The position numbers were made by a program, and so were the translations under genes. Of a stretch of 64,000 nt of DNA, positions 7,930 to 55,567 are shown piece after piece (the first letter of the stretch is position 1; each line of letters opens with the position of its first letter). The notes beneath the pieces are model-generated. The model was not told where the DNA came from, did no database searches, and worked only from the letters and a program-made list of their open reading frames with translations. The DNA comes from Xanthobacteraceae bacterium 501b (GTDB lineage: Bacteria; Pseudomonadota; Alphaproteobacteria; Rhizobiales; Xanthobacteraceae): the NCBI GenBank assembly GCA_000378025.1, contig KB899087.1:1860001-1924000 (forward strand), in the 5' to 3' direction.

Positions 7930-7936
7930 GTCTGCC

Positions 7937-7963: not shown

Positions 7964-8007
7964 ATGTTTTCACCACGTCTCACGCGGGCTACGCGGGGGA
8001 CAGCGGA

Positions 8008-19471: not shown

Positions 19472-19830
19472 CTAGAAGAACCCCTTCGCGGGCAACTTGG
19501 TCCCTTTCGCCTCGAAGGCGCCGATGGCAGTGGCCTTGGTGACGCCGGGATTGTGGGTGGCGAGGGTGCGGGCGTTGCGCCAGCGGCGGTCGGGATTGCG
19601 GGCGCGGCTGGCGGCGCTGGCGCCGGCGAGATCGAAGATGCGCCCGCCAACCCGGATGGCGAGCTCGTCGACAATCAGCTTGGCCTTGCGGGGGCCAGTG
19701 CCGCCTCATGGGGGAGGCCATCGTCGTCGCGTCGCTGTCGCGAGCCGCGCCGACGTCATCGAGCGCCCGCTCGCCGCAAGGGCCGGGCCGGGGCCGGCGA
19801 GGCCGGCCGACGCGACGCAATTAATGGCGG
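19472..19830 (-). pseudogene. 3' remnant of a SfnB/DszC-type acyl-CoA-dehydrogenase-like gene
   Basis: The minus strand ending at 19472 encodes KAKLIVDELAIRVG, GRIFDLAGASAASRARN, PDRRWRNARTLATHNPG and a C-terminal KLPAKGFF before the stop. This is the C-terminal helical end of the flavin-dependent SfnB/DszC group; compare LFDALGASAT..LGLDRHWRN in the intact gene at 58338-59591. Upstream, matching residues (DDVGAARDSD, DDDGLPHEAALA) lie in other frames, so frameshifts are present, and there is no N-terminal two thirds. It is a dead copy at the left border of the sulfur block. Confidence 0.7.
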
Positions 19831-19901: not shown

Positions 19902-21314
19902 TTGCTGGATATCCCTGCCCCCCGCGCCGCGCAGATTCACGAATTGACGGCCCGCGAACTGGCCGCTCTCTACCGCACTGGCGCGCTTTCGCCTGTCGAG
20001 GCGACGACGCAGATCCTCGCGCGCATCGCGGCGCTCGAACCCGCGGTGAACGCCTTCGCGCTGCTCGACCGCGAAGCCGCCCTCGACGCCGCGAGCGCCT
20101 CCGAAGCGCGCTGGCGCCGGGGCGAGCCGCTAAGCCCGGTCGATGGCGTACCGGCGGCGGTCAAGGATCTTCTCTGGACCAAGGGCTGGCCGACGCGGCG
20201 CGGTAGCCATGCGATCGACCCCGACCAGAGCTGGGATGAAGACTCTCCCGCCGTCGCCCGCCTGCGCGAGGCCGGTGCGGTCCTGCTGGGCAAGACGACA
20301 ACCTCGGAATTCGGCTGGAAAGGGCTTGCCGACAGCCCGCTTACCGGCGTCACGCGCAACCCATGGAACCTGAAGCACACGCCGGGCGGCAGCTCCGGCG
20401 GCTCGGCGGTGGCCGCCGCGCTCGGCTTCGGCCCGCTGCAGGTGGCCACCGATGGCGGCGGTTCGACCCGGCTGCCGGCCTCCTTCTCCGGTGTCTTCGG
20501 GTTCAAGCCGAGCTTCGGGCGGGTGCCGGGCTATCCCTCGGCCCACACCGGCACGCTCTTTCACATCGCGCCGCTGACGCGAACCGTGTCCGATGCGGCC
20601 TCGCTGCTGGAGATCATCGCGCGGCCCGATCCCCGCGACTGGCACGCTTTGCCGGCGGCGGAGATCGACTGGCACGGTGCACTGGAGGCCGGGGTCGCGG
20701 GTCTGCGCATCGGCTTCAGCCCGACGCTCGGCTACGCGCAGGTCGATCCCGAGATCGCGGCCGCCGTCGCCTCCGCCGTTCGCCGGCTGGAACAGGCGGG
20801 TGCCCACGTCGAGGAGATCGACCCCGGCATCGATGATCCCTTCCCGGTCTTCCGCACGCTTTGGTTCGCCGCCGCCGCCCGGCTCCTTGCCAACCTGCCG
20901 GAGGAACGGCGCGGTCTGGTCGAACCGGGACTGGCCGAGGTCGCCGCGCAGGGGCGCGCCATCGATGTCGTGGCCTATCTCGGCGCGCTGGAGGCGCGCG
21001 AGGCGCTGGGCCGGAAGCTGGCGCAGTTCCACCAGCGCTATAACCTGCTGATCACCCCGACCACGGCGCGCACCGCGCCGCTGGCCGAGGGCGACAGCGC
21101 GGGGCTGACGGCGCGGCCAATCCCCTCGCCCTTCACCTACCCGTTCAATCTCACCCAGCAGCCGGCCGCCTCGGTGCCGGTCGGGCTGAATTCAGCCGGC
21201 CTGCCCATCGGCCTGCAGCTGATCGCGGCCAAATATCAGGATGCGACCGTGCTCCGGGCCGCCCGGGTGCTCGAACAGGCCCTTCCTTTCGCGCGACCGG
21301 CGGATCCGGCATGA
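19902..21314 (+). CDS. Amidase of the amidase-signature family (first of two)
   Basis: A roughly 470-residue cytoplasmic amidase that would hydrolyse a carboxamide or related C-N bond. The Ser-cisSer-Lys triad is visible as K88 (AAVKDLL), S164 in GGSSGGS and nucleophile S188 in DGGGSTR, the last two 24 apart as in the family. The start is uncertain: TTG 19902 gives MLDIPAPRAAQIHELTARELA, matching where relatives begin, while a good AAGGAG site lies farther up near 19860. It overlaps the next amidase by 4 bp and leads the operon that feeds an SsuABC/TauABC-type importer, so its substrate is probably the imported compound or a breakdown product. Confidence 0.85.
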   Translation: MLDIPAPRAAQIHELTARELAALYRTGALSPVEATTQILARIAALEPAVNAFALLDREAALDAASASEARWRRGEPLSPVDGVPAAVKDLLWTKGWPTRRGSHAIDPDQSWDEDSPAVARLREAGAVLLGKTTTSEFGWKGLADSPLTGVTRNPWNLKHTPGGSSGGSAVAAALGFGPLQVATDGGGSTRLPASFSGVFGFKPSFGRVPGYPSAHTGTLFHIAPLTRTVSDAASLLEIIARPDPRDWHALPAAEIDWHGALEAGVAGLRIGFSPTLGYAQVDPEIAAAVASAVRRLEQAGAHVEEIDPGIDDPFPVFRTLWFAAAARLLANLPEERRGLVEPGLAEVAAQGRAIDVVAYLGALEAREALGRKLAQFHQRYNLLITPTTARTAPLAEGDSAGLTARPIPSPFTYPFNLTQQPAASVPVGLNSAGLPIGLQLIAAKYQDATVLRAARVLEQALPFARPADPA

Positions 21315-22723
21315 GCCTCGCCCCGCCTCCGCTCGATCTCACCCGGCTGCGGGCCGCCTATGCGCGGGGGCTGTCGCCCGTCACCCTCGTCGAGCGGCTT
21401 CTCGCCGGCATCGAGGCGCGCGGCGACGACGGGGTGTGGATCAGCCGCGTCCCCAAACCAAAGCTGCTCGCCCGCGCGCGTGAACTCGCGGCCCTTCCGC
21501 GCTTTGAGCGGGAACGTCTTCATCTGTTCGGCGTGCCGTTCAGCGTCAAGGACTGCATCGACGCTGCCGGGCTTCCCACCACCTCCGCCTGCCCGGCCTA
21601 TGCCTATCAGCCCGAACGGTCGAACCTCGCCGTCGAACGGCTGGTGCGCGCCGGGGCGATACTGGTCGGCAAGACCAATATGGACCAGTTCGCCACCGGG
21701 CTGAACGGCACGCGCACGCCCTATGGCATCGCCCGCAACCCGTTCGATGCGGCCTATATTCCCGGTGGCTCGTCGTCCGGGGCGGCGGTGTCGGTGGCGG
21801 CGGGGCTGGTGAGCTTTGCCCTGGGCACCGACACAGGCGGCTCCGGCCGGGTGCCGGCCGCCTTCAACAATGTGGTGGGGCTGAAGCCGACGCGCGGGCG
21901 CCTGAGCGGCATCGGCGTGGTGCCGGCCTGCCGGTCAATCGAGACGGTCTCGGTCTTCGCACTCACCGCACCGGACGCGCTGGCGGTGCTCGACATTGCC
22001 GAGGAGTTCGACGTCGACGACCCCTTCGCCCGCCTGCCCGGCCGGGGGAAACCCATTCTTGATCAGGGGTTCCGCGTCGGCGTACCTCATGATCCCGCGT
22101 TCTTCGGCGATGCGGGCGCCCGCGCCCTGTTCCTTGAGGGCATCGATACGCTGGCCGCGCTGGGCGGGCAGGTCCGCACGGTGGACTATGCGCCGTTCGC
22201 GGCCCTGAACGAGCTGCTGTTCAACGGGCCCTGGCTGGCCGAACGCTATGGCGCGCTGGCGGAATTCATCGACAACGCGCCCGACGGCGTACTGCCGCTC
22301 ACCCGCGACATCCTGCTCGGCGGCCGCCGTTTCTCCGGCGCCGATGTATTCGCGGGGCTACGACACCTGCTGCAGCAGCGGCGCGAGATCGAGACGCTTT
22401 GGCGCGAGATCGACGTGCTGGTGGTGCCGACCACGCCCACCATTTACCGCATCGACGAGATGCTGGCCGATCCGCTGGTGCTGAATGCCCGGCTCGGCAC
22501 CTATACCAGCTTCGTCAATTTCGCCGATCTCGCCGGCGTCGCGGTGCCGAACGGCTTCCTCCCCAACGGCCTGCCCCAGGGCGTCACCCTGCTCGCGCCG
22601 GCCTGGTCCGAACCGGCGCTGACACGCCTCGCCGACCGCTTCCACCGCGCCCGCGGCGTGCCCCTGGGCGCGACGGGTGCCGCCCACCCCGATATTCCCC
22701 TTGCTGAGAGAGAAAGCGCATGA
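21311..22723 (+). CDS. Allophanate-hydrolase-like amidase lacking the C-terminal domain
   Basis: A 470-residue amidase-signature enzyme with K80 (FSVKDCID), S154 in PGGSSSG and nucleophile S178 in TGGSGR. The sequence around these (SACPAYAYQPERS, TNMDQFATGLNGTRTPYG, VPAAFNNVVGLKPTRG, VVPACRSIETVS) is strikingly like the amidase domain of AtzF/allophanate hydrolase. Full-length AtzF has an extra C-terminal domain of over 100 residues; this protein stops at the end of the amidase domain. It may therefore act on allophanate-like ureido compounds or another amide. Translationally coupled to both neighbours (ATGA overlaps at each end). Confidence 0.85.
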   Translation: MSLAPPPLDLTRLRAAYARGLSPVTLVERLLAGIEARGDDGVWISRVPKPKLLARARELAALPRFERERLHLFGVPFSVKDCIDAAGLPTTSACPAYAYQPERSNLAVERLVRAGAILVGKTNMDQFATGLNGTRTPYGIARNPFDAAYIPGGSSSGAAVSVAAGLVSFALGTDTGGSGRVPAAFNNVVGLKPTRGRLSGIGVVPACRSIETVSVFALTAPDALAVLDIAEEFDVDDPFARLPGRGKPILDQGFRVGVPHDPAFFGDAGARALFLEGIDTLAALGGQVRTVDYAPFAALNELLFNGPWLAERYGALAEFIDNAPDGVLPLTRDILLGGRRFSGADVFAGLRHLLQQRREIETLWREIDVLVVPTTPTIYRIDEMLADPLVLNARLGTYTSFVNFADLAGVAVPNGFLPNGLPQGVTLLAPAWSEPALTRLADRFHRARGVPLGATGAAHPDIPLAERESA

Positions 22724-23712
22724 GCATCGCCAAAACGACCACGCGGCCGACCTGGCTGCGCTTTGCCCTTCTTGCCGCCCTCGGCCTTGGTCTTTGCAGC
22801 CACACGCCGGCCCGGGCCGACAGCGCGCCGCAGGACATCGTCATCGGCGAAGGGTTCGCCCTCGGCTGGGGGCAGTTCTTCGTCGCCGACAGCCAGAAGA
22901 CCTGGCAGGCGCAGGGACTGAAGCCGGAGGTCGTCACCTTCGCCAGCGGCCGCCTCGCGCTCGACGCGCTGGTCGGCGGCCGCATCGCCATCGCCACCGC
23001 CGCAGAGACGCCCGTCGTCTTCGCCAATCTCAACGGCCTGCCGGTGCGGATCATCGGCACGCTCAACCGGCACGAGCCTTTCGATCTGGTGGCGAGTACG
23101 AGCATCGCCACCGCCAAGGATATCAAGGGCAAGCGCATCGGCTACGCCCAGGGGACCAATGCGCATTACTATCTCGGCAAGCTGCTCGCCGCGAACGGGC
23201 TGACGCTGGCCGACATCACGGCGGTCAATCTCAGCCCGGGTGACTTTGTCACCAGCCTCGTCAACGGCTCGCTTGACGCCTTCATCTGGACCGAGCCGCA
23301 TTTGTCGCAGGCGCTGGCGCAGGGGGGCGACAAGGTACATGTCATCCGCAGCCCGGAACTGTACGAGACCTTCTCCAGCATCATCACGCTGCAATCGACC
23401 ATCGACGAGAAGCCCGAACTGCTGGTGAAGGCGCTGAAGGCGCTGATCGCCGCCGACAGCTACATCAAGGCCAATCCCGAGCAATCGATAGCCATCGTCG
23501 CCGAGCGCATCAAGCTCGACCCGAAGGTCGCGGCGGCGTTCTGGGACCGGACCCGCTTCAACCTGACGCTGGACAAGCCGGCGGTGGTGAAGCTGCTGCA
23601 GGAGGAGGCCGAGTGGGCGGTCGCCAACAAGCTGACCCGCCCCGACGCCAAGATCCCGGATTTCAACGCGGTTGTCGTGACCGACCTGTATGAGCGGGCC
23701 GTGGCGAAGTGA
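22720..23712 (+). CDS. Sulfonate/nitrate/taurine-type ABC substrate-binding protein
   Basis: A 330-residue periplasmic protein of the NitT/TauT (SsuA-like) family. Signal peptide core FALLAALGLGLCSHTPARA, cleavage near residue 32. Then VIGEGFALGWGQFF, the conserved DIKGKRIGYAQGTNAHYYLGKLL loop and LVNGSLDAFIWTEPH, all in the expected order for the two-lobed fold. Starts by ATGA overlap with the AtzF-like amidase and ends in a GTGA overlap with the ATPase, so amidases and transporter are one operon. The ligand is not readable from sequence. Confidence 0.87.
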   Translation: MSIAKTTTRPTWLRFALLAALGLGLCSHTPARADSAPQDIVIGEGFALGWGQFFVADSQKTWQAQGLKPEVVTFASGRLALDALVGGRIAIATAAETPVVFANLNGLPVRIIGTLNRHEPFDLVASTSIATAKDIKGKRIGYAQGTNAHYYLGKLLAANGLTLADITAVNLSPGDFVTSLVNGSLDAFIWTEPHLSQALAQGGDKVHVIRSPELYETFSSIITLQSTIDEKPELLVKALKALIAADSYIKANPEQSIAIVAERIKLDPKVAAAFWDRTRFNLTLDKPAVVKLLQEEAEWAVANKLTRPDAKIPDFNAVVVTDLYERAVAK

Positions 23713-24536
23713 ACATGCCGCTCGCCTCATGGCGTGCCGAGGAGCGACCGGTCGTCGCCTCCGGCACGCAGGCCGTGCCAGCCCTGATCGATATCAACGG
23801 CGTCAGCCATTCCTACCGCTCGGCCGGCGGACAGAACCATGCCGCGCTCGCCGAGGTTTCACTGACGATTGGCGCGGGCGAGTTCGTGTGCCTGCTGGGG
23901 CCGAGCGGCTGCGGAAAGACTACGCTGCTCAACATGATCGCCGGCTTCCTCACCCCAACCCACGGCGAGGTGCGGGTCGGGGGCGAGGTGGTGCGCGGTC
24001 CCGGTCCCGAGCGGGGCGTGGTGTTTCAGGATTACTCGCTGTTCGGCTGGCTGACGGCGCTTGGAAATGTCGCCTTCGGCCTGCGCATGGCCGGCGTTCC
24101 GCGGGCGCTGCGCCGGCGCAAGGCGGAGGAAGGGCTGCGCGCCATGGGCCTTGAGGGCGTGGCGGGGCGCTACCCGTTCGAACTTTCCGGCGGCATGAAG
24201 CAGCGCGTCGCCATTGCCCGTGCGCTGGCAACCGAGCCGCAGGTTCTGCTGGCGGACGAGCCCTTTGCGGCGCTGGACGCCATGACGCGGGCCAGCCTGC
24301 AGGCCCAGCTGCTCGACATCCAGCAGCGCTCCGGCACGACGGTGGTGTTCGTCACCCACAACATCGCCGAGGCGGTGTTCCTCGGCAGCCGCATCCTCGT
24401 GATGTCGGCGCATCCCGGCCGGGTGGTCGAGGACGTCAGGATCGACCTGCCGCGCCCCCGGCGGCGCACCAGCACCCCGTTCAACGCGCTCTATGAGCAT
24501 CTCAGCCGTGCCATAGGGCTGGAGGGGGACGAATAA
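23709..24536 (+). CDS. ABC transporter ATPase, SsuB/TauB type
   Basis: 275 residues. Walker [10 protein letters not shown] (about 65-73), Q-loop VVFQDYSLF, signature LSGGMKQR, Walker B VLLADEPFAALDA and the switch His in FVTHN are all present, so it should be active. The C terminus DVRIDLPRPR.R is usual for nitrate/sulfonate/taurine ATPases. The start is GTG 23709 (overlapping) or ATG 23715. Energises the importer formed with the flanking binding protein and permease. Confidence 0.9.
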   Translation: MNMPLASWRAEERPVVASGTQAVPALIDINGVSHSYRSAGGQNHAALAEVSLTIGAGEFVCLLGPSGCGKTTLLNMIAGFLTPTHGEVRVGGEVVRGPGPERGVVFQDYSLFGWLTALGNVAFGLRMAGVPRALRRRKAEEGLRAMGLEGVAGRYPFELSGGMKQRVAIARALATEPQVLLADEPFAALDAMTRASLQAQLLDIQQRSGTTVVFVTHNIAEAVFLGSRILVMSAHPGRVVEDVRIDLPRPRRRTSTPFNALYEHLSRAIGLEGDE

Positions 24537-24538
24537 GC

Positions 24539-25312
24539 ATGCGCCTTCCCGCCCGATCTGTTTTCCTCGGAAGCCTCGGAGCACTCGCCTTCTTTGGTGG
24601 CTGGGAGGCGCTGAGCCATAGCGGGCTGGTCAATCCGATCATGCTGCCGGCGCCCTCGCTGGTGGTGCGGTCCGGTGCCGAGCTGCTGGGGAGCGGGGAA
24701 CTCGCGCGACATCTCGCGGCCAGCCTCTGGCGTGCGGCGCTCGGCTTCGTCTCCGGTGCGCTCCTCGCTATCGGCCTTGGTATCGCCATGGCGAGAAGTG
24801 CCGGCTTGTACGACCTCATCAACCCGCTGGTGCAGATGTTCCGCGCCATTCCCTCGCTCGCCTTCGTGCCGATCGCCATCTTCTGGTTCGGCATCGGCGA
24901 GACCTCCAAGATATTCCTTGTGGCCTGGGGCGTCTTCTTCCCGGTCTGGGTCAACACCTATATCGGCGTGCGCGACACCTCGCCCCTGCTGCTGCGCGCC
25001 GGTGCCAGCCTCGGCGCGGGGAACTGGCGGCTGCTGGCCTTCGTCGTGCTGCCGGCCGCGCTGCCGCTCATTCTCGCCGGGCTGAGGGTGGGGCTTTCGA
25101 TTGCGCTGGTCGTGCTCGTGGCGGCGGAACTGGCCGGGGCCGCGTTCGGCGTCGGCTATCTGATCCAGATGTCGCAAACCGTGTTTCGCGTCGACCAGAT
25201 GTTTGTCGGCCTCGTGGTGCTCGGCATGATGGGCTATCTCGCCGACTTCCTGTTCGAGTGGGCGGTTCGGACGCTGTTGCCCTGGTACGGCGCCGAGCGG
25301 GGCCGGGGCTGA
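24539..25312 (+). CDS. ABC transporter permease, SsuC/TauC type
   Basis: 257 residues with about six transmembrane helices. The cytoplasmic EAA-like loop (LRAGASLGAGNWRLLAFVVLPAALPLI) that docks on the ATPase is clear. Opens with a short basic N terminus followed by a hydrophobic helix. Two bases separate it from the ATPase stop. Completes importer 1 of three NitT/TauT-type importers in the window. Confidence 0.9.
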   Translation: MRLPARSVFLGSLGALAFFGGWEALSHSGLVNPIMLPAPSLVVRSGAELLGSGELARHLAASLWRAALGFVSGALLAIGLGIAMARSAGLYDLINPLVQMFRAIPSLAFVPIAIFWFGIGETSKIFLVAWGVFFPVWVNTYIGVRDTSPLLLRAGASLGAGNWRLLAFVVLPAALPLILAGLRVGLSIALVVLVAAELAGAAFGVGYLIQMSQTVFRVDQMFVGLVVLGMMGYLADFLFEWAVRTLLPWYGAERGRG

Positions 25313-25360
25313 CGCAATTTATTGCGCGAGCTGCCCTCCCGCTTCTGCAATGGTGACGCC

Positions 25361-25663
25361 ATGACACCCGATGAAGCCGTCCCGCTCGAACTCAAGCTCA
25401 CGGATAACCGCAGCGTCCTCGCCATCACCTGGGAGAACGGGGCCGTATCCCGCCTTGACGCGCCACTGCTGCGCCGGCACAGCCGCTCCGCATCAGCGGT
25501 TCGGGCGGCGCTGGAAGGGGTAGCGGCACCGGCAGATGGCGTGACGCTCACCCGCGTCGAACCCATCGGAGCCTACGCCGTACGGCTATCCTTTTCCGAC
25601 GGACATGATCGCGGCATCTATCCCTGGCGCCATCTGCGCGCCATCGCCGACGGCACGGCGTGA
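25361..25663 (+). CDS. DUF971 (GBBH-like N-terminal domain) protein
   Basis: A 100-residue single-domain protein. LELKLTDNRSVLAITWENG, LLRRH, then RVEPIGAYAVRLSFSDGHDRGIYPW fit DUF971, the small domain at the N terminus of gamma-butyrobetaine hydroxylase, also found free beside iron-sulfur proteins. Cysteines seen near the LR segment of some relatives are absent here. Start ATG 25361 lacks a clear ribosome site; an in-frame upstream start at 25322 exists. It sits between the importer and the AprA-like gene, overlapping neither. Confidence 0.75.
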   Translation: MTPDEAVPLELKLTDNRSVLAITWENGAVSRLDAPLLRRHSRSASAVRAALEGVAAPADGVTLTRVEPIGAYAVRLSFSDGHDRGIYPWRHLRAIADGTA

Positions 25664-25674
25664 GGACGTCTTCC

Positions 25675-27411
25675 ATGGATGCGATAAAGGACGGCCTCTC
25701 GCAGGTCGATTGCGACGTGCTGGTGATCGGCGGCGGCACCGCCGGGCCGATGGCGGCGCTGAAGGTGAAGCAGAACAACCCGAAGGCGCGCGTCGTCCTG
25801 CTGGAAAAGGCCAATGTGAAGCGCTCCGGCGCCATCTCCATGGGCATGGACGGGCTGAACAACGCCGTGGTGCCGGGCTACGCCACCCCGGAGCAGTACA
25901 CCAAGGAAATCACCATCGCCAATGACGGTATCGTCGACCAGGCGCCGGTGCTGAAGTATGCCGAGCGCTGCTTCGAGATCATCCAGGAACTGGACCGCTT
26001 CGGCATCCGCTTCCAGAAGACCGGCAATGGCGACTACGACGTCAAGAAGGTGCACCATCTCGGCACCTATGTCCTGCCGATGCCCAATGGCGACACGGTG
26101 AAGAAGGCGCTCTATCGCCAGCTGCGCCGCGAGCAGGTGCTGATTTCCAACCGCTACATGGCGACCCGGCTGCTCACCGCGCCGGACGGGCGGATTGCCG
26201 GCGCCATCGCGGTGAACACACGCAGCGCCGAATTTCTGGTGCTGCGCGCCAAGGCGGTGATCCTGTGCCTCGGCGCGGCCGGTCGGCTGGGCCTGCCGCA
26301 GTCCGGCTATCTCTGGGGCACCTATGAGAACGCCACCAATTCCGGCGACGGCTACGCCATGGCGTTCCATGCCGGGGCGGCGCTGGCCAATCTCGAATGC
26401 TACCAGATCAACCCGCTGATCAAGGACTATAACGGCCCGGCCTGCGCCTATGTCGCCGGCCCCTTCGGCGCCTATACCGCCAATGCGGAGGGCAATCGCT
26501 TCATCGAGAGCGACTACTGGTCGGGCCAGATGATGCAGGAATTCTACAACGAGCTGCAGTCGGGCAAGGGGCCGGTGTTCCTCAAGCTCAACCATCTTCA
26601 TCCCGACACGGTGGGCGAGATCGAAACCATCCTGCACAAGGTGGAGCGCCCCTCGCGCGGCCGCTTCCACGCGACGCGCGGCACGGATTACCGCGAGAAG
26701 ATGATCGAGATGCACATTTCGGAAATCGGCTTCTGCTCGGGCCACAGCGCCTCGGGCGTCTTCGTGGATGAGTTCGCCCGCACCACGGTGCAGGGGCTCT
26801 ACGCCGCCGGCGACATGGCGAACGTGCCGCACAACTACATGCTGGGCGCCTTCACCAATGGCGCCGTCGCCGGCGAGCACGCCGCCTCCTATATCGGCGA
26901 GGTCGACCTTCCCGAGATCGACGCCGAGTTCATCGCCAAAGAGCGCGCCCGCGTGCTGGCGCCGACCAAGCGCGAGGACGGCATTCCGCCGAACCAGCTC
27001 GAATACAAGACGCGGCGCTTCGTGAACGACTATCTCCAGCCGCCCAAGGTGACGGCGCGGATGAAGATCGGCCAGCAGCGTTTCGCCGAGATCCGCGAGG
27101 ACCTCGACACCGCGATGGTTGCCCGCGATTCGCACGAGCTGATGCGGGCGCTGGAGATCGCCTCGATTCTCGACTGCGCCGACATGGCCGCGCACGCCTC
27201 GCTGTTCCGCACCGAAAGCCGTTGGGGGCTCTACCACAACCGTGTCGAGTACCCTGAGAAGGACGACGAGAACTGGTTCTGCCACACGCTGCTGCGCAAG
27301 AAGGACGGCCGCATGGTCTCCGAAAAGCAGCCGATCGCGCCCTATAGCGTTCCCATCGAGGACGAGGAACGCGGCGCCTACGACCAGTTGCGCGTCCGCA
27401 AGCAGGCCTGA
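25675..27411 (+). CDS. AprA-like FAD-dependent oxidoreductase (fumarate reductase/adenylylsulfate reductase superfamily)
   Basis: 578 residues. The N-terminal dinucleotide fold GGGTAG (19-24) binds FAD, and LLEKANVKRSGAISMGMDGLNN closely recalls the flavin-contacting segment of AprA (adenylylsulfate reductase alpha). TVQGLYAAGDMANVPHN is the second FAD contact. It is shorter than AprA (about 640), so it is a homologue of unknown reaction, not an assured APS reductase. ATG 25675 has TGAGGA 8 bp upstream. The next gene is a small two-cluster ferredoxin, matching the AprA-AprB pairing. Its position behind amidases and a sulfonate-type importer suggests a redox step on the imported compound (inference). 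Confidence 0.82.
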   Translation: MDAIKDGLSQVDCDVLVIGGGTAGPMAALKVKQNNPKARVVLLEKANVKRSGAISMGMDGLNNAVVPGYATPEQYTKEITIANDGIVDQAPVLKYAERCFEIIQELDRFGIRFQKTGNGDYDVKKVHHLGTYVLPMPNGDTVKKALYRQLRREQVLISNRYMATRLLTAPDGRIAGAIAVNTRSAEFLVLRAKAVILCLGAAGRLGLPQSGYLWGTYENATNSGDGYAMAFHAGAALANLECYQINPLIKDYNGPACAYVAGPFGAYTANAEGNRFIESDYWSGQMMQEFYNELQSGKGPVFLKLNHLHPDTVGEIETILHKVERPSRGRFHATRGTDYREKMIEMHISEIGFCSGHSASGVFVDEFARTTVQGLYAAGDMANVPHNYMLGAFTNGAVAGEHAASYIGEVDLPEIDAEFIAKERARVLAPTKREDGIPPNQLEYKTRRFVNDYLQPPKVTARMKIGQQRFAEIREDLDTAMVARDSHELMRALEIASILDCADMAAHASLFRTESRWGLYHNRVEYPEKDDENWFCHTLLRKKDGRMVSEKQPIAPYSVPIEDEERGAYDQLRVRKQA

Positions 27412-27420
27412 GGAACCACC

Positions 27421-27654
27421 ATGCCCCTCGCATTCTCTCCCACGACTGTTCCCGTCGTCGTCGACGACGCCAAGTGCATCGCCGAGAAGGGCTGCACGGT
27501 CTGCGTCGATGTCTGCCCTCTCGACGTGCTGCGGATCAGCGAAGAAACCGGCAAGGCCTACATGAAATATGACGAATGCTGGTACTGCATGCCGTGCGAG
27601 GCCGACTGTCCGACCGGGGCGGTGACGGTCAACATTCCCTATCTGCTGCGCTGA
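27421..27654 (+). CDS. Small 2[4Fe-4S] ferredoxin, AprB-like core
   Basis: 77 residues. Two cluster motifs are visible: C..KGCTVCVDVCP (first four cysteines within residues 19-32) and CWYCMPCEADCP (second set), followed by TGAVTV. It corresponds to the ferredoxin core of AprB without AprB's long C-terminal tail. Ten bases separate it from the AprA-like gene, so the two probably form an electron-transfer pair in the cytoplasm. Confidence 0.9.
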   Translation: MPLAFSPTTVPVVVDDAKCIAEKGCTVCVDVCPLDVLRISEETGKAYMKYDECWYCMPCEADCPTGAVTVNIPYLLR

Positions 27655-27663
27655 GGTCCGATC

Positions 27664-28620
27664 GTGCTGTTCGAGCCCTTCGAGGATTTCGGCGATGTCG
27701 GGGAGATCGCGGCACGCTTGCGCGAGTCCGATCCTGCGGTGCGGCGCCTCGCCGTCATCGAACTTGCCGGCACGGCAAGCCCGGATGCCATCGGGCCGAT
27801 CGGCTCATTGACCGAGGACCCGGACGCCGGTGTCCGTCTCCAGGTCGCCCTCGCGCTGGGCGAGTTCGACGGCGCGGCGGCGGCCGAGGGGCTGGCCCGG
27901 CTGGTCGTCGATGCCGACCCAAATGTCGCGGCGGCGGCGGCGGCCAGCCTCACCGAGCTGAAGCAACCCGAGGCCGGCGCCCCGCTGCTGCCGCTCGCCG
28001 CCCATGCCTCGCCCTTCGTGCGGGCGGCGGTGCTGGGCGGGCTGCGCGGGCTTCGGCTGGACGCGGCGCTGGGCCCTGCTCTCATCGCCCTTACCGATCC
28101 GGAACCCGGGGTGCGTGTGCAGGCGGCCGGCGTCATCGCCTATCTCAAGCGGGAAGACGCCCTGCCCTCGCTGATCGCGGCCGCCCGTGACCCCGAGCCG
28201 GATGTGCGCACAGTCGCGGTCGACGCGCTCGCCTTCAGCCGCCACGATGGCGCCGCTGACGCCGTCGTCCAGGCTCTGGAGGATGCGCATTGGCAGGTGC
28301 GCGCTTCGGCCGCCGAGACGCTGGGGCGCATCGGCCTCGTCTCAGCCATACCGGGGCTCACCCGCACGCTCGGCGACACGTTCTGGCAGGTGCGGCAGAA
28401 GGCGCTGCGTAGCCTCGGATCGCTGAAGGCCCGCACGGCCATTCCGCTCATCCTGCCGCTGCTCGGCCATGAGGTGGCGATCCTGCGCAAGGAGGCCGCG
28501 GCGGCGCTCGGCGAGATGGCCGATCCCGTGGCACGGGTGGAACTGGAGCAGCGGGCCGACGACCCCGATCCCGAGGTGCGCAAGACGGTGCGGTGGGCGC
28601 TGGGACGCCTCACGGCCTGA
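27664..28620 (+). CDS. HEAT-repeat protein
   Basis: A 318-residue all-helical protein built of about nine or ten PBS/HEAT-type repeats with the pattern DP..GVR..AA..LG, e.g. DPEPGVRVQAAGVIAYL, DPEPDVRTVAVDALAF, DAHWQVRASAAETLGRIG and a final DPDPEVRKTVRWALGRL. Such proteins scaffold or help lyase-like cofactor attachment; here it may hold the flavoprotein and ferredoxin or help cofactor loading (inference). GTG start at 27664, 9 bp after the ferredoxin stop. Last gene of the rightward operon. Confidence 0.88.
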   Translation: MLFEPFEDFGDVGEIAARLRESDPAVRRLAVIELAGTASPDAIGPIGSLTEDPDAGVRLQVALALGEFDGAAAAEGLARLVVDADPNVAAAAAASLTELKQPEAGAPLLPLAAHASPFVRAAVLGGLRGLRLDAALGPALIALTDPEPGVRVQAAGVIAYLKREDALPSLIAAARDPEPDVRTVAVDALAFSRHDGAADAVVQALEDAHWQVRASAAETLGRIGLVSAIPGLTRTLGDTFWQVRQKALRSLGSLKARTAIPLILPLLGHEVAILRKEAAAALGEMADPVARVELEQRADDPDPEVRKTVRWALGRLTA

Positions 28621-28651
28621 ACCGCGCACCGGCGCACCGGTGTGCGGGTTC
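28619..28651. terminator. Hairpin shared by the convergent HEAT and Crp/Fnr genes
   Basis: GAACCGCGCACCGG pairs with CCGGTGTGCGGGTTC (one bulge, one mismatch) around the loop CGCA. It spans the whole 29-bp gap and touches both stop codons, so it probably ends transcription from both sides. Confidence 0.55.
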
Positions 28652-29459
28652 AATTCTCCTTCGAGACGAGATGGAGCAGCAGGTCCGGCCGGTCGATGCG
28701 GATCGCCTTTGGCGTTACCGACACGACGCCGTCCTTCTGGAACCGCTTGAGCATCATCGTCACCCATTGGCGGGTGGAGCCGACCATGGCGGCGATCTGA
28801 TCATGAGTGATGCGCCGGTGGATGACGATGGCGCGCCCTTCGCGCTCGCCATAGAGCGCGCCGAGATTGATCAGGAACTGCGCCAGTCGTTCGATCACCG
28901 AGCGGGTGCCCAGCATCTGGGCCATGGCGGAATAGCTCTTGCCCTTGGCGACGAGCCCCTCGATGAGGCACAGAGCGAAATTGGGGAGCTGGGTGACGAG
29001 GCCATGCAGCGCGCTGCTCGGCACCAGCAGCACGCGGCACTCCTCCAGCGCCTCGCCGGACCAGATATGCGTGCCGCCGCCGCTAATCTCGGGGCCGCCG
29101 CAGAAATGGCCGGGCGTCCAATAGGCGAGCGTGATCTCGCGGCCGGACGGCGCGGTGTAGAAGACGCGCACCCGGCCTTCCTCGATGATGAAGATGCCGG
29201 CATGGGGCTCGCCCTGCGCAAACACGCTCTCGCCGGGATGGAAGGTGACCTGCCGGCCGACATCGCGCAGCCGCTGGCGTTCGGTGGCGCTGAGCCGATC
29301 AAGAAAATGGGCGCCCTCGTTCAGTCCCTCCACACTTTCACTGAGGAACAGCGCATGGTCGCCGGGCAGGATACCCGGCGTGGCGTCCCGCGCCTGGGCC
29401 AGGCTGGCAGGTCTCGATTTGGCGGCGACCTCGCCAGCCTTGCGGGCATCAAGCTGCAT
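28650..29459 (-). CDS. Crp/Fnr-family transcriptional regulator
   Basis: 269 residues. A 40-residue N-terminal extension is followed by a cyclic-nucleotide-binding fold (FHPGESVFAQGEPHAGIFIIEEG..RVFY, about 73-100) and a C-terminal winged helix (ITHDQIAAMVGSTRQWVTMMLKRF, about 218-241). The recognition helix STRQWVTMMLKR has the Crp-type R at the second position. No Fnr-type N-terminal cysteine set is visible, so it is not an obvious oxygen sensor. It diverges from the large binding-protein gene at 29689 and converges on the AprA-like operon, making it a candidate regulator of either (inference). Confidence 0.88.
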   Translation of the reverse strand: MQLDARKAGEVAAKSRPASLAQARDATPGILPGDHALFLSESVEGLNEGAHFLDRLSATERQRLRDVGRQVTFHPGESVFAQGEPHAGIFIIEEGRVRVFYTAPSGREITLAYWTPGHFCGGPEISGGGTHIWSGEALEECRVLLVPSSALHGLVTQLPNFALCLIEGLVAKGKSYSAMAQMLGTRSVIERLAQFLINLGALYGEREGRAIVIHRRITHDQIAAMVGSTRQWVTMMLKRFQKDGVVSVTPKAIRIDRPDLLLHLVSKEN

Positions 29460-29484: not shown

Positions 29485-29688
29485 GTTAAACAGTAGAATT
29501 TTGGGACGCGCAAGGCGCCGGCGCGTTTTCTTTAGCGGTGCGGGCGGCCGGAGACGGGCAAATTAATTGCTTCAAGCACACTAGCTCGCATGTAACCACA
29601 GACAGCAGAAGGGATCCTCCGTAATTGCGGACGGGTTCTGTTGAATGGCGCCACGAGGCGCCGATCCGCTCCTGTCATGAGGTTCACC

Positions 29689-31104
29689 ATGCAGATACGC
29701 ACGACGATCGCCGCCGCGCTGCTCGCCGCCACAAGCGTCTTCTCGGTTGCTGCGGGAGCTGAGACCGTCCGCGTCGCCATCGGCACACAGGACACCACCA
29801 TCAACACCGCCACCGGCGGCCTGCTGGTGCGGGAATTGAAGCTTCTCGACAAGTACCTGCCTCGCGACGGCAAGTACAAGGACGTGACCTACGACATCGT
29901 CTGGAAGAATTTCACCTCCGGCGCGCCCATCACCAACGAGCAGATCGCGGGAAAACTGGATTTCGGCATCATGGCCGATTTCCCCGGCTCGCTGAACGGC
30001 GTCGCGCACGAGAAGGCCGGCCGGAAGAGCCTGTTCGTCGGCGTGCTGTCCGGCAGCGTGAAGGGCTCGGGCAACGGCATCGTGGTGCCAGCGGTCTCGC
30101 AGGCGCAGTCGCTGGCCGACCTCAAGGGCAAGACCATTTCGGTGCCCTTCGCCTCCACGGCGCACGGCCTGCTGCTGCGGGCCGTCAAGGCGCAGGGCTG
30201 GGACCCGGAAAAGGACGTGAAGATCATCACCCAGGCGCCGGAAGTGGCGGGCTCGGCGCTGCAATCGAACCAGATTGATGCCCATGCCGACTTCGTACCC
30301 TTCGCCGAGCTGTTTCCCTGGCGCGGCTTCGCCCGCAAGATCTATGACGGCTCGCAGGCCAATGGCGCCACCTTCCACGGCGTGCTGGTCGATGCCGACT
30401 ACGCCAAGAAGTACCCCGAAGTCGTGACCGCCTATTTCCAGGCGGTGATCGAGGCCGACCGGCTGTTCGCCCAGGAGCCGGAAAAATACTCCGAGCTGAT
30501 CGCCAAGACGGCCGGGATCGAGGCGGAGGTGAACTACCTGTTCCACGGCCCGCTCGGCCTGCAGACGCGCGACCTCACCTGGAAGCCGGAATACAAGCAG
30601 GCGGTGTCGACCTCGATCGACACGCTGAAGCTGCTCAAGCGCGCCGATCAGGGCATCGATGTCGGCAGCTTCGTCGACGACACCTATATCCGCGCCGCGT
30701 TCACGGCCTCCGGCCTCGATTATGAAAAGGCGCTAAAGAACTACGCCCCCTCGCCGCTCGATGCCAAGGACGCGCTGACCGGCGAGGCGATCACCGATCC
30801 CAAGCGCGTGGCGCAGATCTGGGTCAAGGGCGAGCCGCTGGTGCGCCCTTACGCCTCGGCCGAGAACGCCTTCAAGGCGCTCAAGCAGCTCGAAACAGAA
30901 GAGAAGATCGCCCGCGTGGTCTACGCCCAGGACCGCGAGAGCGGCATCAAGCTGCTGGCCGCGCAAGCCTGGTTCGTCAGGGGCGACACTGGCGAGGTGA
31001 GCGCCTTCCTGCTCAAGACCAGCGCGGATGACTGGGCGAAGAAGAACGGCGGAAAGGTGCTGGACTTCCCGGGCGTGAAGTCCGCCACCCTCGCCAGCAA
31101 CTGA
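29689..31104 (+). CDS. TauA/SsuA-like binding protein with C-terminal extension
   Basis: 471 residues, well over the 320-340 usual for this family. Signal peptide MQIRTTIAAALLAATSVFSV, cut near AGA24. Residues 25-345 form a NitT/TauT-type binding fold (VRVAIGTQDT, ADLKGKTISVPFASTAHGLLLRAV, LQSNQIDAHADFVPFAELFP). The last 100 residues (PLVRPYASAENAFKALKQL.. LLAAQAWFVRGDTGEVSAFL.. WAKKNGGKVLDF) look like an added small domain reminiscent of NosL/MbnP-type proteins; that match is tentative. ATG 29689 is chosen for the TGAGGT site upstream and a clean signal peptide. First gene of importer 2. Confidence 0.83.
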   Translation: MQIRTTIAAALLAATSVFSVAAGAETVRVAIGTQDTTINTATGGLLVRELKLLDKYLPRDGKYKDVTYDIVWKNFTSGAPITNEQIAGKLDFGIMADFPGSLNGVAHEKAGRKSLFVGVLSGSVKGSGNGIVVPAVSQAQSLADLKGKTISVPFASTAHGLLLRAVKAQGWDPEKDVKIITQAPEVAGSALQSNQIDAHADFVPFAELFPWRGFARKIYDGSQANGATFHGVLVDADYAKKYPEVVTAYFQAVIEADRLFAQEPEKYSELIAKTAGIEAEVNYLFHGPLGLQTRDLTWKPEYKQAVSTSIDTLKLLKRADQGIDVGSFVDDTYIRAAFTASGLDYEKALKNYAPSPLDAKDALTGEAITDPKRVAQIWVKGEPLVRPYASAENAFKALKQLETEEKIARVVYAQDRESGIKLLAAQAWFVRGDTGEVSAFLLKTSADDWAKKNGGKVLDFPGVKSATLASN

Positions 31105-31121: not shown

Positions 31122-31958
31122 ATGGCACGTCCGCGCCCTCTTCCCTCCGGCCGATCCGTCCCGGACACGGCCCGTTTCGCCGGAGTTGGGCGCTGGCTGC
31201 TGCGCGCGGCCTCGCTCGGGGTCTGCCTCCTCGCCTGGCAGGCGGCGGCGCAGCTGCGCCTCGACCTCGGCATCGTCACCTTTCGCAATGTGCCGCCGCC
31301 GGTGGAGGTGGCACAGGCGGGCATCGAGCTGCTGCAATCCTCGAAGCTGTTCGATCATGTGACGAGCAGCCTGTCGCGCGTGTTTGCGGGCTACGGACTC
31401 GCCGCCCTTGCCGGCGTCATGCTCGGCCTCGCGGTGGGGCGCTCGCGCCTTGCCGGCGACGTGCTGATGCCGCCGCTGGAAATCCTGCGCCCGATCCCGG
31501 CGGTCGCGTGGATCCCGCTGGCAGTCCTCATGTTCCCGTCCTCCGAGCTGTCGATGATCTTCATCACCTTCACCGGCGCGCTGTTCCCGATCCTGCTCAG
31601 CACGATCCACGGCGTGGAGAATGTCGACCCGCGCCTCGTCGCCTCCGCCCGCAGCCTCGGCGCCGGCTGGGGCGCGATCCTGCGCGAAGTGGTGCTGCCG
31701 GCGGCGGCGCCGAGCATCGTCACCGGCCTCGCCATCGGCATGGGCACGTCGTGGTTCTGCCTGGTGACGGCGGAAATGATCTCCGGCCAGTACGGCATCG
31801 GCTACTACACATGGGAATCCTACACGCTCCAGAATTACCCCGACATCGTGGTCGGCATGGTGCTGATCGGGCTGATGGGCATGGGTTCCAGCGCCCTGCT
31901 GCGCCGCGCCGGGGCCCGGCTCACGCCGTGGCACTCGACCGACGAGGCCCGCCGGTGA
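31122..31958 (+). CDS. ABC transporter permease, SsuC/TauC type
   Basis: 278 residues with a basic N terminus and about six transmembrane helices. The ATPase-docking loop is VASARSLGAGWGAILREVVLPAAAPSIV. Starts 17 bp after the binding protein and overlaps the ATPase start (GTGA). The inserted segment EILRPIPAVAWIPLAVLMFPSSE is characteristic of nitrate/taurine permeases. Confidence 0.9.
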   Translation: MARPRPLPSGRSVPDTARFAGVGRWLLRAASLGVCLLAWQAAAQLRLDLGIVTFRNVPPPVEVAQAGIELLQSSKLFDHVTSSLSRVFAGYGLAALAGVMLGLAVGRSRLAGDVLMPPLEILRPIPAVAWIPLAVLMFPSSELSMIFITFTGALFPILLSTIHGVENVDPRLVASARSLGAGWGAILREVVLPAAAPSIVTGLAIGMGTSWFCLVTAEMISGQYGIGYYTWESYTLQNYPDIVVGMVLIGLMGMGSSALLRRAGARLTPWHSTDEARR

Positions 31959-32806
31959 GCGGGCACGAGCGGCGCGCGCATGGCCACGCCGAACAGGGCC
32001 GGATCGACGCGGAGGGCGTCTTCATCCGGCTGGGCCAGGGGGCGGAGGCGTTTGAAGCCGTGCAGGACGTGTCCTTCACGGTGCCGGCGGGCGAATTTGT
32101 CTGCGTTCTCGGGCCCTCGGGCTGCGGAAAGTCGACGCTGCTCGGCGCCCTCGCCGGCCATATCGCCCCCGCCCACGGCGCGCTCACCCTTGATGGCGCG
32201 GCCATTTCCGGCCCGCATCCCGACCGGGGCATCGTGTTCCAGCACCACACGCTGTTTCCGTGGAAGAACGTGCGCGACAACATCGCCTTCGGCCCCAAGA
32301 TGCGCGGCATCCCGAAAGCGGAGCGGCATCGACAGGCCGACGAGATTCTCGAACTGATCGGCCTGGGCGGGTTCGCCGGGCGCTATCCCAAGCAGCTCTC
32401 CGGCGGCATGCAGCAGCGCGTGGAGATTGCCCGCGTGCTGGTCAACCATCCGCGCCTGCTGCTGATGGACGAACCCTTCGGGGCGCTCGACGCGCTGACG
32501 CGGATGATGATGCAGGAGCTGCTGCTCGACATCTGGACCCGCCTGCGCACGACGATCGTCTTCATCACGCATGACATCGACGAAGCGCTGTTCCTGGCCG
32601 ACCGGGTGCTGGTGATGAGCCCGCGTCCGGGCCGCATCGTCGAGGATATCACCGTGCCCTTCGAGCGACCGCGGCGCGCCGAGATTGTCGCCGAACCGCC
32701 GTTCGGCCGCCTCAAGCGGCATTGCCTCGATCTGCTGCGCCCCCGGCCGGGAACCGACACGCTTCCCCGCCTCAGCCCCCTCGGCGCGCCCCCGCACGCA
32801 CGCTGA
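31955..32806 (+). CDS. ABC transporter ATPase, nitrate/sulfonate/taurine type
   Basis: 283 residues, starting by GTGA overlap with the permease. Walker A GPSGCGKST, Q-loop IVFQHHTLFPW, signature LSGGMQQR, Walker B LLLMDEPFGALDA and FITHDIDEA are intact. The C-terminal tail (residues 250-283) is proline-rich and longer than usual. Completes importer 2; the M20 deacylase gene follows 23 bp later on the same strand. Confidence 0.9.
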   Translation: MSGHERRAHGHAEQGRIDAEGVFIRLGQGAEAFEAVQDVSFTVPAGEFVCVLGPSGCGKSTLLGALAGHIAPAHGALTLDGAAISGPHPDRGIVFQHHTLFPWKNVRDNIAFGPKMRGIPKAERHRQADEILELIGLGGFAGRYPKQLSGGMQQRVEIARVLVNHPRLLLMDEPFGALDALTRMMMQELLLDIWTRLRTTIVFITHDIDEALFLADRVLVMSPRPGRIVEDITVPFERPRRAEIVAEPPFGRLKRHCLDLLRPRPGTDTLPRLSPLGAPPHAR

Positions 32807-32829: not shown

Positions 32830-34149
32830 ATGAACGCTGCCGTCGCCGCCCCCCTGTCCGAACGCGAAGAGCGCATACTCGCCCGCATCACCGAGGAGGC
32901 GTGGCTCGCCCTTGCGGTCGAGCTGGTCGGCATCGGCCAGCCGGCCGCCGAAAACCCGCTCGACCCCGATCTCCCCGGCGCGCAGGAGGAGGCGATCGCG
33001 CTGCATGTCGCCGGCCAGCTGCAGCTGCTTGGCTTCGCGGTGACGCGGCCGACCAAGACCCCCGGGCGGCCGAATGTGATCGGTGTCTGGCCGGGCGAGG
33101 ACGGCGGCAAGGTGCTGATCGTCAACGACCATCTCGACACCTACCCCGCCGGCGATCCGGCGGCATGGACCCGCACCGGCGGGCAGCCTTTCCAGGCGAC
33201 GCGGGACGGCGACCGGCTCTACGGTCGCGGCACGTCCGACACGCGCGGCAATGTCGCCGCCATCCTGCTCGCCCTGAAGGCGATCCGCGCCGAGGGCCTG
33301 CACTTTCCGGCGACGCTGAAGGCGGTGTTTACCAGCGACGAGGAGCGCCACGGCACGGACGGCGCGATCTACCTGCTTGATGAGCTCGGCCTGACGGCGG
33401 ATTACGAGATCACGGTCGAGCCCACCGCCTGGACCGGACCGGAAGGCGACTGGGGGGTGGATATCGGCGTCGCCAATGCCGGCAATTGCCTTGTCGAAGT
33501 GACGACCACGGGCGTGAAGACCCATCTCTGGCGTCCCGACACCGGCATCAATGCGCTGGTCAAGCTGGCGGACCTCATCAAGCGGCTGGAGACGCTGGAA
33601 TTCACGCACATACCGCCGCGCCTTTATGGCGGGACGCCGCCCCGCGTCGCGGTGGTGCGCGCGCGCGGCGGCATCGAGGGCGAGCTGCAGTTCACGCCGG
33701 ACAAAGCGAGCGCGATCCTCGCCATTGTCGGCCTTGTGCCCGGGCAGACGGCGGACAGCGTGCTTGGCGACATTCGCGCCGCGATCAGCGAGCTGAAGCG
33801 CGCCGACAATGCCTTCGAGGCGGAAGCGCGCCTGCTGCCGGGCTCGCTCTTCGTGGCGGCTACGGAAGAACTGCCGGCGGATGCCGAGCCGGCCCGCTCA
33901 GTCGCGGACGCCTACCGCCGCGTGACCGGCAAGGCGCCGCGCTTCTATCGCAAGAATGCCTACAACGACACGATCCGCTTTGCGCATAAAGGCATCAATG
34001 CCGTGACCTTCGGCCCCGGCGAGGATGGCTGGCCACCGGTCAACGAATTCATCCATATCAGCAAATCCGTCGCCGCCACGAAGGTCCTCGCGCTGGCGAT
34101 CCTGGATATCCTTCAGAAGGAAGACAACGGATCCGCAAGAGGCAATTAG
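32830..34149 (+). CDS. M20-family metallopeptidase/deacylase
   Basis: 439 residues of the ArgE/DapE/carboxypeptidase G2 type, which hydrolyse an amide bond using two zinc ions. Metal ligands are visible: H101 and D103 in NDHLDTY, D137 in GRGTSDTRGN, and the E171-E172 pair in TSDEERHG. A lid/dimerisation domain follows (about 205-325). ATG 32830 has AGGA 9 bp upstream. Sitting at the end of an importer operon, it probably removes an acyl or amino-acyl group from the imported compound. M20 deacylases accompany NtaA/SnaA-type monooxygenases in Bacillus S-alkylcysteine pathways, and such monooxygenases occur farther along this block. Confidence 0.85.
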   Translation: MNAAVAAPLSEREERILARITEEAWLALAVELVGIGQPAAENPLDPDLPGAQEEAIALHVAGQLQLLGFAVTRPTKTPGRPNVIGVWPGEDGGKVLIVNDHLDTYPAGDPAAWTRTGGQPFQATRDGDRLYGRGTSDTRGNVAAILLALKAIRAEGLHFPATLKAVFTSDEERHGTDGAIYLLDELGLTADYEITVEPTAWTGPEGDWGVDIGVANAGNCLVEVTTTGVKTHLWRPDTGINALVKLADLIKRLETLEFTHIPPRLYGGTPPRVAVVRARGGIEGELQFTPDKASAILAIVGLVPGQTADSVLGDIRAAISELKRADNAFEAEARLLPGSLFVAATEELPADAEPARSVADAYRRVTGKAPRFYRKNAYNDTIRFAHKGINAVTFGPGEDGWPPVNEFIHISKSVAATKVLALAILDILQKEDNGSARGN

Positions 34150-34172
34150 TTTGCCGTCAGCGTCGCTTTAAA

Positions 34173-35240: not shown

Positions 35241-35251
35241 GCCGCCCGGCT

Positions 35252-47282: not shown

Positions 47283-47286
47283 GGCG

Positions 47287-52631: not shown

Positions 52632-52632
52632 C

Positions 52633-55507: not shown

Positions 55508-55567
55508 TGCGACGGGCGGCGCCCGGCCGGTGCCCGCCCTCTTCTCTTGTCACCGGATACCGACATC

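Follow-up and report, generated by a model that had tools for sequence, protein, structure and literature searches.

A conserved flavoprotein–ferredoxin–HEAT module with a partner importer in Xanthobacteraceae bacterium 501b and other Pseudomonadota: a candidate system for organosulfonate sulfur

A stretch of 64,000 nucleotides from Xanthobacteraceae bacterium 501b (contig KB899087.1, positions 1,860,001 to 1,924,000; hereafter the window) carries a gene cluster in which a flavoprotein resembling adenylylsulfate (APS) reductase is encoded together with a two-cluster ferredoxin and a HEAT-repeat protein. These three genes, usually accompanied by one for a DUF971 protein, are a conserved core, and the partner importer of this core is a NitT/TauT-type system (importer 2: SBP2, per2 and ATP2) downstream of a Crp-type regulator gene, not the amidase/SsuABC-type block that precedes the core in the window. 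The conserved unit is real and apparently undescribed; among flavoprotein-ferredoxin systems it represents a variant of the APS-reductase/Asf kind, with an importer and a scaffold of its own and, in many alphaproteobacteria, its own regulon. Our tentative reading, held with somewhat less than even confidence, is that of a sulfur-acquisition regulon in which an organosulfonate-type anion would be imported and sulfite released from it by reductive flavin chemistry.

Of 398 Pseudomonadota genomes in an even sample, 21 (the source genome among them) encode the flavoprotein, and members of the rhizobia, methylobacteria, burkholderias and marine Rhodobacterales have the module. For comparison, 107 flavoprotein neighbourhoods were assembled from 20 sampled genomes, 80 named genome contigs and seven regions of a plasmid collection (loci are numbered with L). 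The contig loci are the best 80 of at least 592 relatives, with distant relatives under-sampled; Bradyrhizobium is heavily represented (30 neighbourhoods, plus six labelled g2) and at least three genomes are counted twice (L069/L104, L068/L105 and L072/L117). Counts of 91 refer to neighbourhoods of at least 19 kb, the 16 shorter ones being excluded. The ferredoxin and HEAT genes were present in 91 of 91, importer 2 in 83, the DUF971 gene in 81 and the Crp gene in 63, and a single locus of the 107 (L096) had no ferredoxin match. Relatives of ami1 (at least 45 % identity), ami2 and SBP1 were detected in three, five and two of the 91, respectively, and the whole amidase/importer-1 block in order was seen in one other neighbourhood (L066, genome G289). 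At L089 (Bradyrhizobium hereditatis, 6838–9577), importer 1 lies just 5′ of DUF971 and ami2 is a 40-residue remnant; the permease match there is split into two pieces that overlap, which may reflect a frame break. A first-pass annotation of the window had described one gene set and proposed searching other genomes for its co-occurrence in the same order. The neighbourhood of the core is conserved, but the amidase/SsuABC block recurs whole once and as a remnant once, and it is the second importer, past the Crp gene, that is conserved; this importer and the Crp gene belong to the unit and had been overlooked when its boundary was drawn.

Importer 2 occurred in two forms, a close one (SBP2 at least 55 % identical to that of the window) in 29 of the 91 neighbourhoods and a distant one (at least 32 %) in 54, and was not seen in eight. 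A ferredoxin-NADP reductase (FNR) gene accompanied 51 of 54 distant-type and none of 29 close-type loci, and an FdxA-like ferredoxin 21 of 54 and 0 of 29. Regulators of close-type loci were GntR-type in 19 and Crp in eight, and those of distant-type loci mostly Crp (49). Most of the beta- and gammaproteobacterial loci whose gene order was mapped have the order flavoprotein, ferredoxin, importer 2, HEAT, DUF971 (exceptions include L163), which places importer 2 inside the operon, between the ferredoxin and HEAT genes. The nearby genes for NADPH-to-ferredoxin transfer argue for a reductive reaction in the distant-importer subtype; by analogy, the reaction of the window's own subtype may run in the same direction. 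On a 44-kb Acinetobacter baumannii record called a plasmid (L028, CM018764.1), a GntR/UTRA-type gene replaces Crp. SCO1/SenC, PCuAC copper chaperone and cytochrome c genes lie near importer 2 at L122 (13804–20537) and at seven further SCO1-matching loci, in marine alphaproteobacteria.

The name of the NCBIfam model passed by the flavoprotein (NF006131, PRK08275; 1077 bits, cut-off 587) is annotation only, and the AprA model TIGR02061 is not passed (152 bits, cut-off 642). A phylogenetic tree of 31 rows, rooted on succinate dehydrogenase, fumarate reductase and L-aspartate oxidase (SDH/FRD/NadB) and with long branches flagged, placed the flavoprotein in a clade of 12 rows (support 99/96) that is sister to AprA plus methanogen phosphoadenylylsulfate (PAPS) reductase, with 100/99 for the joint group. 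The Asf-type clade, which includes AsfA of Cupriavidus metallidurans CH34 (100/100), lies outside this group. The likeness to AprA noted at first pass corresponds to a sister relationship, and the tree that had been proposed as a check puts the flavoprotein outside the AprA, SDH/FRD/NadB and CH34-Asf clades. AprA itself is absent from the source genome.

The flavoprotein lacks the nucleotide-site residues of APS and PAPS reductases. Arg265 and Trp234 of AprA (Archaeoglobus fulgidus numbering) have roles in this site. The flavoprotein keeps Asn74, and H362 and H391 both align with histidines; in all 12 clade rows, however, Arg265 is replaced by leucine (Leu253), Trp234 by tyrosine (Tyr222) and Gln145 by histidine, a KKVHH or RKVHH loop occupying the position of Glu141/Gln145. 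In PMC10322725, Gln145 is given as an APS-site residue, the substrate switch of the PAPS reductase of Methanothermococcus thermolithotrophicus (MtPAPSR) is placed in the Glu141/Gln145 loop with catalytic residues retained, and attack of FAD-N5 on sulfur is proposed. Databases label the flavoprotein fumarate reductase/succinate dehydrogenase. Its residues speak against this label: the QxHP histidine is Asn251 and both the NRL arginine and the arginine of the SDH GxGG loop are missing, while the HY histidine of SDH/FRD corresponds to H352 in one alignment and not in another. An AlphaFold2 model (mean predicted local distance difference test (pLDDT) 72, predicted template-modelling (TM) score 0.81) had its best fold matches in PAPS reductase 8a8o (TM score 0.80) and then APS reductase (0.77); 8a8o was also the best-scoring solved sequence, at 26 % identity.

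The ferredoxin, of 77 residues and two clusters as first described, has all eight cluster cysteines and Trp54, as do 106 of 106 aligned relatives. In the alignment, the tryptophan is at the same place as in AprB (CWYC in the window, CWEC in 3gyx_B). The AprB model TIGR02060 gave 35.8 bits against a cut-off of 135.65, the model being 132 positions long. The HEAT protein matches positions 598–895 of NF010374 (PRK13800), a flavoprotein-HEAT fusion model of 898 positions, the N-terminal part of which matches the flavoprotein, and this fusion speaks for a physical association of the two proteins.

The substrate class is suggested by the surroundings of the module. The window also holds an organosulfur island (49994–56848) with above-cut-off genes for SfnG, an NtaA/DmoA-type monooxygenase and SfnB (Table 1) and, below the NCBIfam cut-offs, MetN- and MetQ-type importer proteins. 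All three above-cut-off SfnB copies of the genome (1915.7, 1936.6 and 1937.8 kb) are at most 55 kb from the flavoprotein (1885.7 kb), and four of its 11 NtaA-type copies lie at 1911–1977 kb. A PF03601-type gene, for a putative sulfate/sulfite exporter, was present in 33 of 91 neighbourhoods; these come from at least eight genera, and every one has the distant form of importer 2. The profile gave 207 bits (cut-off 24.5) on the L122 copy. Among 20 whole genomes, 18 carry one or two copies and six have one within 12 kb of the module (five of these are of one genus); enrichment figures are based on a density of 1.2 or 1.4 copies per 6.2 Mb. The NCBIfam ‘putative sulfate exporter’, TIGR00698, is related to this type, of which TauZ is presumably a member. 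PMC5320631 and PMC3511301 describe TauZ as a sulfate exporter or as a possible exporter of sulfite. In Aquabacterium olei, a TauE/SafE gene adjoins the module. The best solved matches of SBP2 were mainly sulfonate-binding proteins, and included SsuA, the ‘nitrate transport protein’ 3e4r, which we take to be Xanthomonas SsuA, and TauA. The organosulfur island, the exporter-type neighbours and these matches favour an organosulfonate-type anion as the cargo of importer 2. The first-pass annotation had proposed import of a sulfur or nitrogen compound followed by a flavin/iron-sulfur redox step; such a step on the imported anion is supported, with sulfur favoured and nitrogen less so.

Open reading frames and family profiles gave nine genes, all on the forward strand, between 19902 and 28620, with junctions of −4, −4, −4, +2, +48, −4, +9 and +9 bp. 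The earlier account of eight genes at this site was thus right about the proteins and not about their number. Three of the four amidase/importer junctions show its 4-bp overlap, as does the one between DUF971 and the flavoprotein; the ATP1/per1 junction is +2 bp, and the gaps of about 10 bp at the end measured 9 bp each. The nine genes probably form two transcription units, since the 48-bp gap 5′ of DUF971 contains a palindrome that recurs in relatives.

This palindrome (GCAAnTAATTGC-like) was first spotted in the window and at L155 and then counted elsewhere as GCAA-N-W-W-(W)-N-TTGC, at distances under 160 bp upstream of DUF971 or SBP2; its commonest near-palindromic forms are GCAACTAATTGC and GCAATTTATTGC. 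Among the 107 neighbourhoods it was found at 57 of 71 loci with a Crp gene and at four of 36 without, where the density at other sites predicts about 0.002 per locus. Bradyrhizobium or g2 accounted for 36 of the 57, and the proportion in the remainder was 21 of 35. By genus, the box was present at 30 of 30 Bradyrhizobium and four of five Methylobacterium loci and in Rhodopseudomonas, Hansschlegelia, Methylopila, Aquabacter, Afipia and Mycoplana, among others; three of seven plasmid regions had it, and no Rhodobacterales locus of the 107 matched the count pattern. We infer from this co-occurrence with the Crp gene that its product binds the box. Exact matches to the known Crp/Fnr boxes TTGATN4ATCAA, TTGAN6TCAA and TGTGAN6TCACA were absent from the window. 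When up to one mismatch was allowed, GCAANTANTTGC matched the window five times against a shuffled mean of 0.66, and three of these sites are away from module genes. Genome-wide, the exact box GCAANTWNTTGC occurred at seven distinct places (nine strand-counted, against seven strand-counted control matches), and this lack of excess means that no distant regulon members are shown. A looser site at 34142 could possibly bring the third importer into the regulon.

In this lineage the amidase block seems to belong to the same regulon as an accessory and not to be part of the core. Palindromes 5′ of ami1, DUF971 and importer 2 tie it to the core, as does the repeated proximity of AtzF-like amidases, and mere coincidence as the cause of its position was rejected on these grounds. 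In G289 (L066), an exact box (GCAATTAATTGC) lies up to about 100 bp 5′ of ami1. An AtzF-like amidase is encoded within 10–12 kb of the module in two of 19 other whole genomes and, among the 80 contigs, near it at L098, L100, L111, L125, L137 and L146, from several genera, which exceeds chance under simple assumptions. The 470-residue ami2 passes the allophanate hydrolase model TIGR02713 (533 bits, cut-off 511.05) over model positions 2–426 of 563, which bears out its description as AtzF-like without the C-terminal domain. The grouping of the amidases with the core thus holds as an accessory association, not as one conserved set. An M20-family deacylase (32830–34149) and the third NitT/TauT-type importer adjoin importer 2, and the amidases and deacylase together suggest amide-bearing precursors. 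A similar deacylase/third-importer set, with an allophanate-hydrolase gene near the module, was observed in M. radiotolerans (L027).

In the proposed sulfur-acquisition regulon, importer 2 would take up an organosulfonate-type anion, and the flavoprotein and ferredoxin would form an AprAB-like heterodimer, joined or docked by the HEAT protein. Electrons would pass from NADPH through FNR and ferredoxin to FAD, the FNR being encoded beside the core in one subtype and supplied by the general pool in the other. The FAD would then attack or reduce the sulfur centre, and sulfite would be freed for assimilation or export. Control would be exerted by the Crp-type regulator in most alphaproteobacterial copies and by a GntR-type regulator in most beta- and gammaproteobacterial ones. 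In the source genome, two amidases with their own importer would join the regulon, probably freeing the sulfonate from amide-bearing precursors. To our knowledge, the routes of sulfonate-sulfur assimilation in aerobes are oxygenolytic. A more specific version, to which we give a low probability, is an O2-independent, ferredoxin-driven reductive desulfonase, fed by NADPH and scaffolded by the HEAT protein, in which an APS-reductase chassis with a rebuilt nucleotide site would let FAD take sulfite from an organosulfonate (or sulfamate); its users would be soil, plant-associated and marine bacteria, and in many alphaproteobacteria it would be switched by its own Crp regulon.

Several observations weigh against the sulfur-acquisition proposal. 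NtaA-type and SfnG-type genes were each found in only six of 91 neighbourhoods, so that the sulfur context is clear in the source genome and some relatives and not everywhere, and at most Bradyrhizobium loci the exporter-type gene is the sole sulfur context. Five of six exporter-type proteins scanned were below the TIGR00698 cut-off, the sixth (L157) had no match, and the name ‘sulfate exporter’ is itself putative. SBP2 scored 115 bits with the SsuA model TIGR01728 (cut-off 163.5). The replacement of Arg265 throughout the clade means that the chemistry may differ from that of Apr, and the mean pLDDT of the flavoprotein model is only 72. The window's close importer type is the one that has no FNR gene nearby (0 of 29). 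The SCO1, PCuAC and cytochrome c genes of Rhodobacterales-type loci, where the box is absent, are unexplained by the model.

An unlikely alternative is that the flavoprotein-ferredoxin pair supplies electrons to a sulfonate-cleaving oxygenase without touching the substrate. This is the model printed for AsfAB with SsuE/SsuD (PMC4267179, PMC2864759), and NtaA/SfnG-type monooxygenase genes are found near some copies and in the source island. However, if the core, importer 2, Crp, FNR and one further permease family are set aside, no family occurs in more than 25 of 107 neighbourhoods (frames were picked mechanically and rarer families are mostly unannotated). The flavoprotein has the fold of APS/PAPS reductase with a substrate pocket of its own, and the dedicated importer within the operon points to a substrate of the pair's own.

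Also unlikely is the explanation that the module is the asf system under another name, already described for aryl sulfonates. Pseudomonas putida S-313 requires asfRABC for aromatic sulfonates; besides a reductase/ferredoxin pair, this cluster holds genes for a binding protein, a transporter and a regulator of the LysR type (PMC4267179). In CH34, AsfA/AsfB are Rmet_4334/5 (PMC2864759). The flavoprotein-ferredoxin-binding protein order of beta- and gammaproteobacterial loci fits A-B-C, and the organosulfur setting fits too. However, the CH34 pair at 927.9–929.9 kb belongs to the other clade, and no close relative of the window flavoprotein was found on the replicon that holds it. The identity of this pair as Asf rests on gene-number interpolation, by which Rmet_4334 falls at about 923.5 kb; six TauD tags (PMC2864759) fit the record's six TauD places when it is read as running round its start, and a ferredoxin-pattern scan of 580–980 kb gave no other such pair apart from an SDH-like set at 895 kb. 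The source genome also has a pair of the Asf type, which lies 6 kb beyond the end of the window (L063, 6090–8038; G000:C1:1930090-1932038), with a flavoprotein 64 % identical to that of CH34, a 112-residue ferredoxin and importer genes. One sulfur island of this genome thus holds two flavoprotein-ferredoxin systems. The regulator is a weak point of the comparison: asfR is of the LysR type, yet at equal thresholds a LysR gene lay within 5.1 kb at three of 12 Asf-type and one of 107 window-type loci and within 2.6 kb at none of either (0 of 12, 0 of 107), and none adjoining the CH34 pair was recognised by eye. No match listed in the protein searches (120 each, names abbreviated) carried the source name AsfA. 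A CH34-type Asf system was rejected as the identity of the window module by the separate clade (100/100), the low identity, an AsfB without the tryptophan and the absence of window-type HEAT and DUF971 matches at the mapped Asf loci. Since the CH34 pair belongs to the other clade, the module is, on this comparison, a system parallel to asf, unless AsfA of S-313 differs from that of CH34.

The least likely alternative, scavenging of nitrogen or carbon, in which amidases and importers would take up an amide- or ureido-compound and the flavoprotein dehydrogenate a non-sulfur substrate with electrons passing to ferredoxin, draws on the AtzF-like score of ami2, the AtzF-like amidases repeatedly near the module, the adjoining M20 deacylase and an importer family that transports nitrate and other anions as well, but the amidases are accessory, fumarate-reductase-type catalytic residues are not kept, and the FNR and exporter-type neighbours and the organosulfur island favour reduction and sulfur.

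A search of open-licence PMC papers yielded none recognised as describing the module, in agreement with the first-pass statement that no characterised pathway is known to have this composition. If the sulfur-acquisition proposal is true, a further organosulfur-release chemistry would stand beside the known FMNH2 (reduced flavin mononucleotide) monooxygenases and TauD-type dioxygenases, and what the flavoprotein-ferredoxin pairs of Apr-like and Asf type do in sulfur operons would become a testable question. A widespread bacterial protein also carries a database name, fumarate reductase/succinate dehydrogenase, that its residues argue against.

Table 1. Module genes, candidate regulatory sites and organosulfur genes of the window
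Feature	Position	Strand	Basis or remark
GCAATTAATGGC, one mismatch from palindrome, about 85 bp 5′ of ami1	19817..19828	+	Mismatch scan
ami1, amidase (NF004815, PRK06169)	19902..21314	+	TTG start from first-pass annotation; open frame back to 19497
ami2, AtzF-like amidase without C-terminal domain	21311..22723	+	TIGR02713 match
SBP1, NitT/TauT-type binding protein	22720..23712	+	Nearest solved is SsuA 2x26
ATP1, importer ATPase	23709..24536	+	Family profiles
per1, importer permease	24539..25312	+	Family profiles
Regulon palindrome GCAATTTATTGC, 5′ of DUF971	25314..25325	+	Comparison with relatives
DUF971 (GBBH-like_N, PF06155) protein, ATG start	25361..25663	+	Family profile; 81/91 neighbourhoods
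Flavoprotein, NCBIfam NF006131 (PRK08275)	25660..27411	+	1077 bits, tree, residues, fold
2[4Fe-4S] ferredoxin, 77 residues, AprB-like, Trp54	27421..27654	+	Profile and alignment
HEAT-repeat protein	27664..28620	+	Profile NF010374; 91/91 neighbourhoods
Crp/Fnr-family regulator, probable palindrome reader	28650..29459	-	Profiles, box co-occurrence
Regulon palindrome GCAAATTAATTGC, one more spacer base, 5′ of SBP2	29558..29570	+	Comparison with relatives
SBP2, binding protein of conserved partner importer	29641..31104	+	Profiles, conservation, solved matches
per2, importer 2 permease	31122..31958	+	Profiles, conservation
ATP2, importer 2 ATPase	31991..32806	+	Profiles, conservation
GCAATTAGTTTGC, possible looser box 5′ of third importer	34142..34154	+	Outside counted pattern
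SBP3-ATP3-per3, third NitT/TauT-type importer, possible regulon member	34221..36809	+	Profiles
SfnG, dimethylsulfone monooxygenase, above cut-off	49994..51112		NCBIfam
NtaA/DmoA-type monooxygenase, above cut-off	51259..52632		NCBIfam
SfnB, above cut-off	55547..56848		NCBIfam

Elsewhere in the window, three frames within 18 kb resemble MetQ/NlpA binding proteins (37284–38066, 40712–41512 and 54671–55507). Positions 42501–48970, on the reverse strand, hold branched-chain-amino-acid-type importer genes, including one for a LivF-like ATPase and two similar-looking adjoining frames; the frame 43342–44721 had no NCBIfam match at 1e-20. Two frames at 7957–10330 resemble, by eye, the IstA/IstB pair of an IS21-type element.

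Among known systems, AprAB (TIGR02061/TIGR02060) shares with the module the fold of the FAD subunit, a two-cluster ferredoxin subunit with tryptophan at the second cluster, Asn74 and both histidines; the window flavoprotein differs in forming a separate sister clade with Arg265, Trp234 and Glu141/Gln145 replaced, and the module in having its own importer, HEAT and DUF971 partners and in occurring in genomes without AprA. The PAPS reductase of M. thermolithotrophicus (8a8o) is closest in fold and is an Apr-type enzyme used assimilatorily, but it groups with AprA and keeps the arginine and tryptophan at the positions of Arg265 and Trp234. SDH, FRD and L-aspartate oxidase have the superfamily fold and the database name in common with the flavoprotein, which does not keep their QxHP histidine, NRL arginine and GxGG-loop arginine. 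The NF010374 proteins likewise combine a flavoprotein with a HEAT domain, in one chain where the window has two genes. The CH34-type AsfAB/asfRABC system also pairs a flavoprotein with a two-cluster ferredoxin and a NitT/TauT-type importer in an organosulfur setting; its flavoproteins, however, are about 23–31 % identical to that of the window and of another clade, AsfB of the source genome and of CH34 lacks the tryptophan (CQTC), and the mapped Asf loci have no window-type HEAT or DUF971 match.

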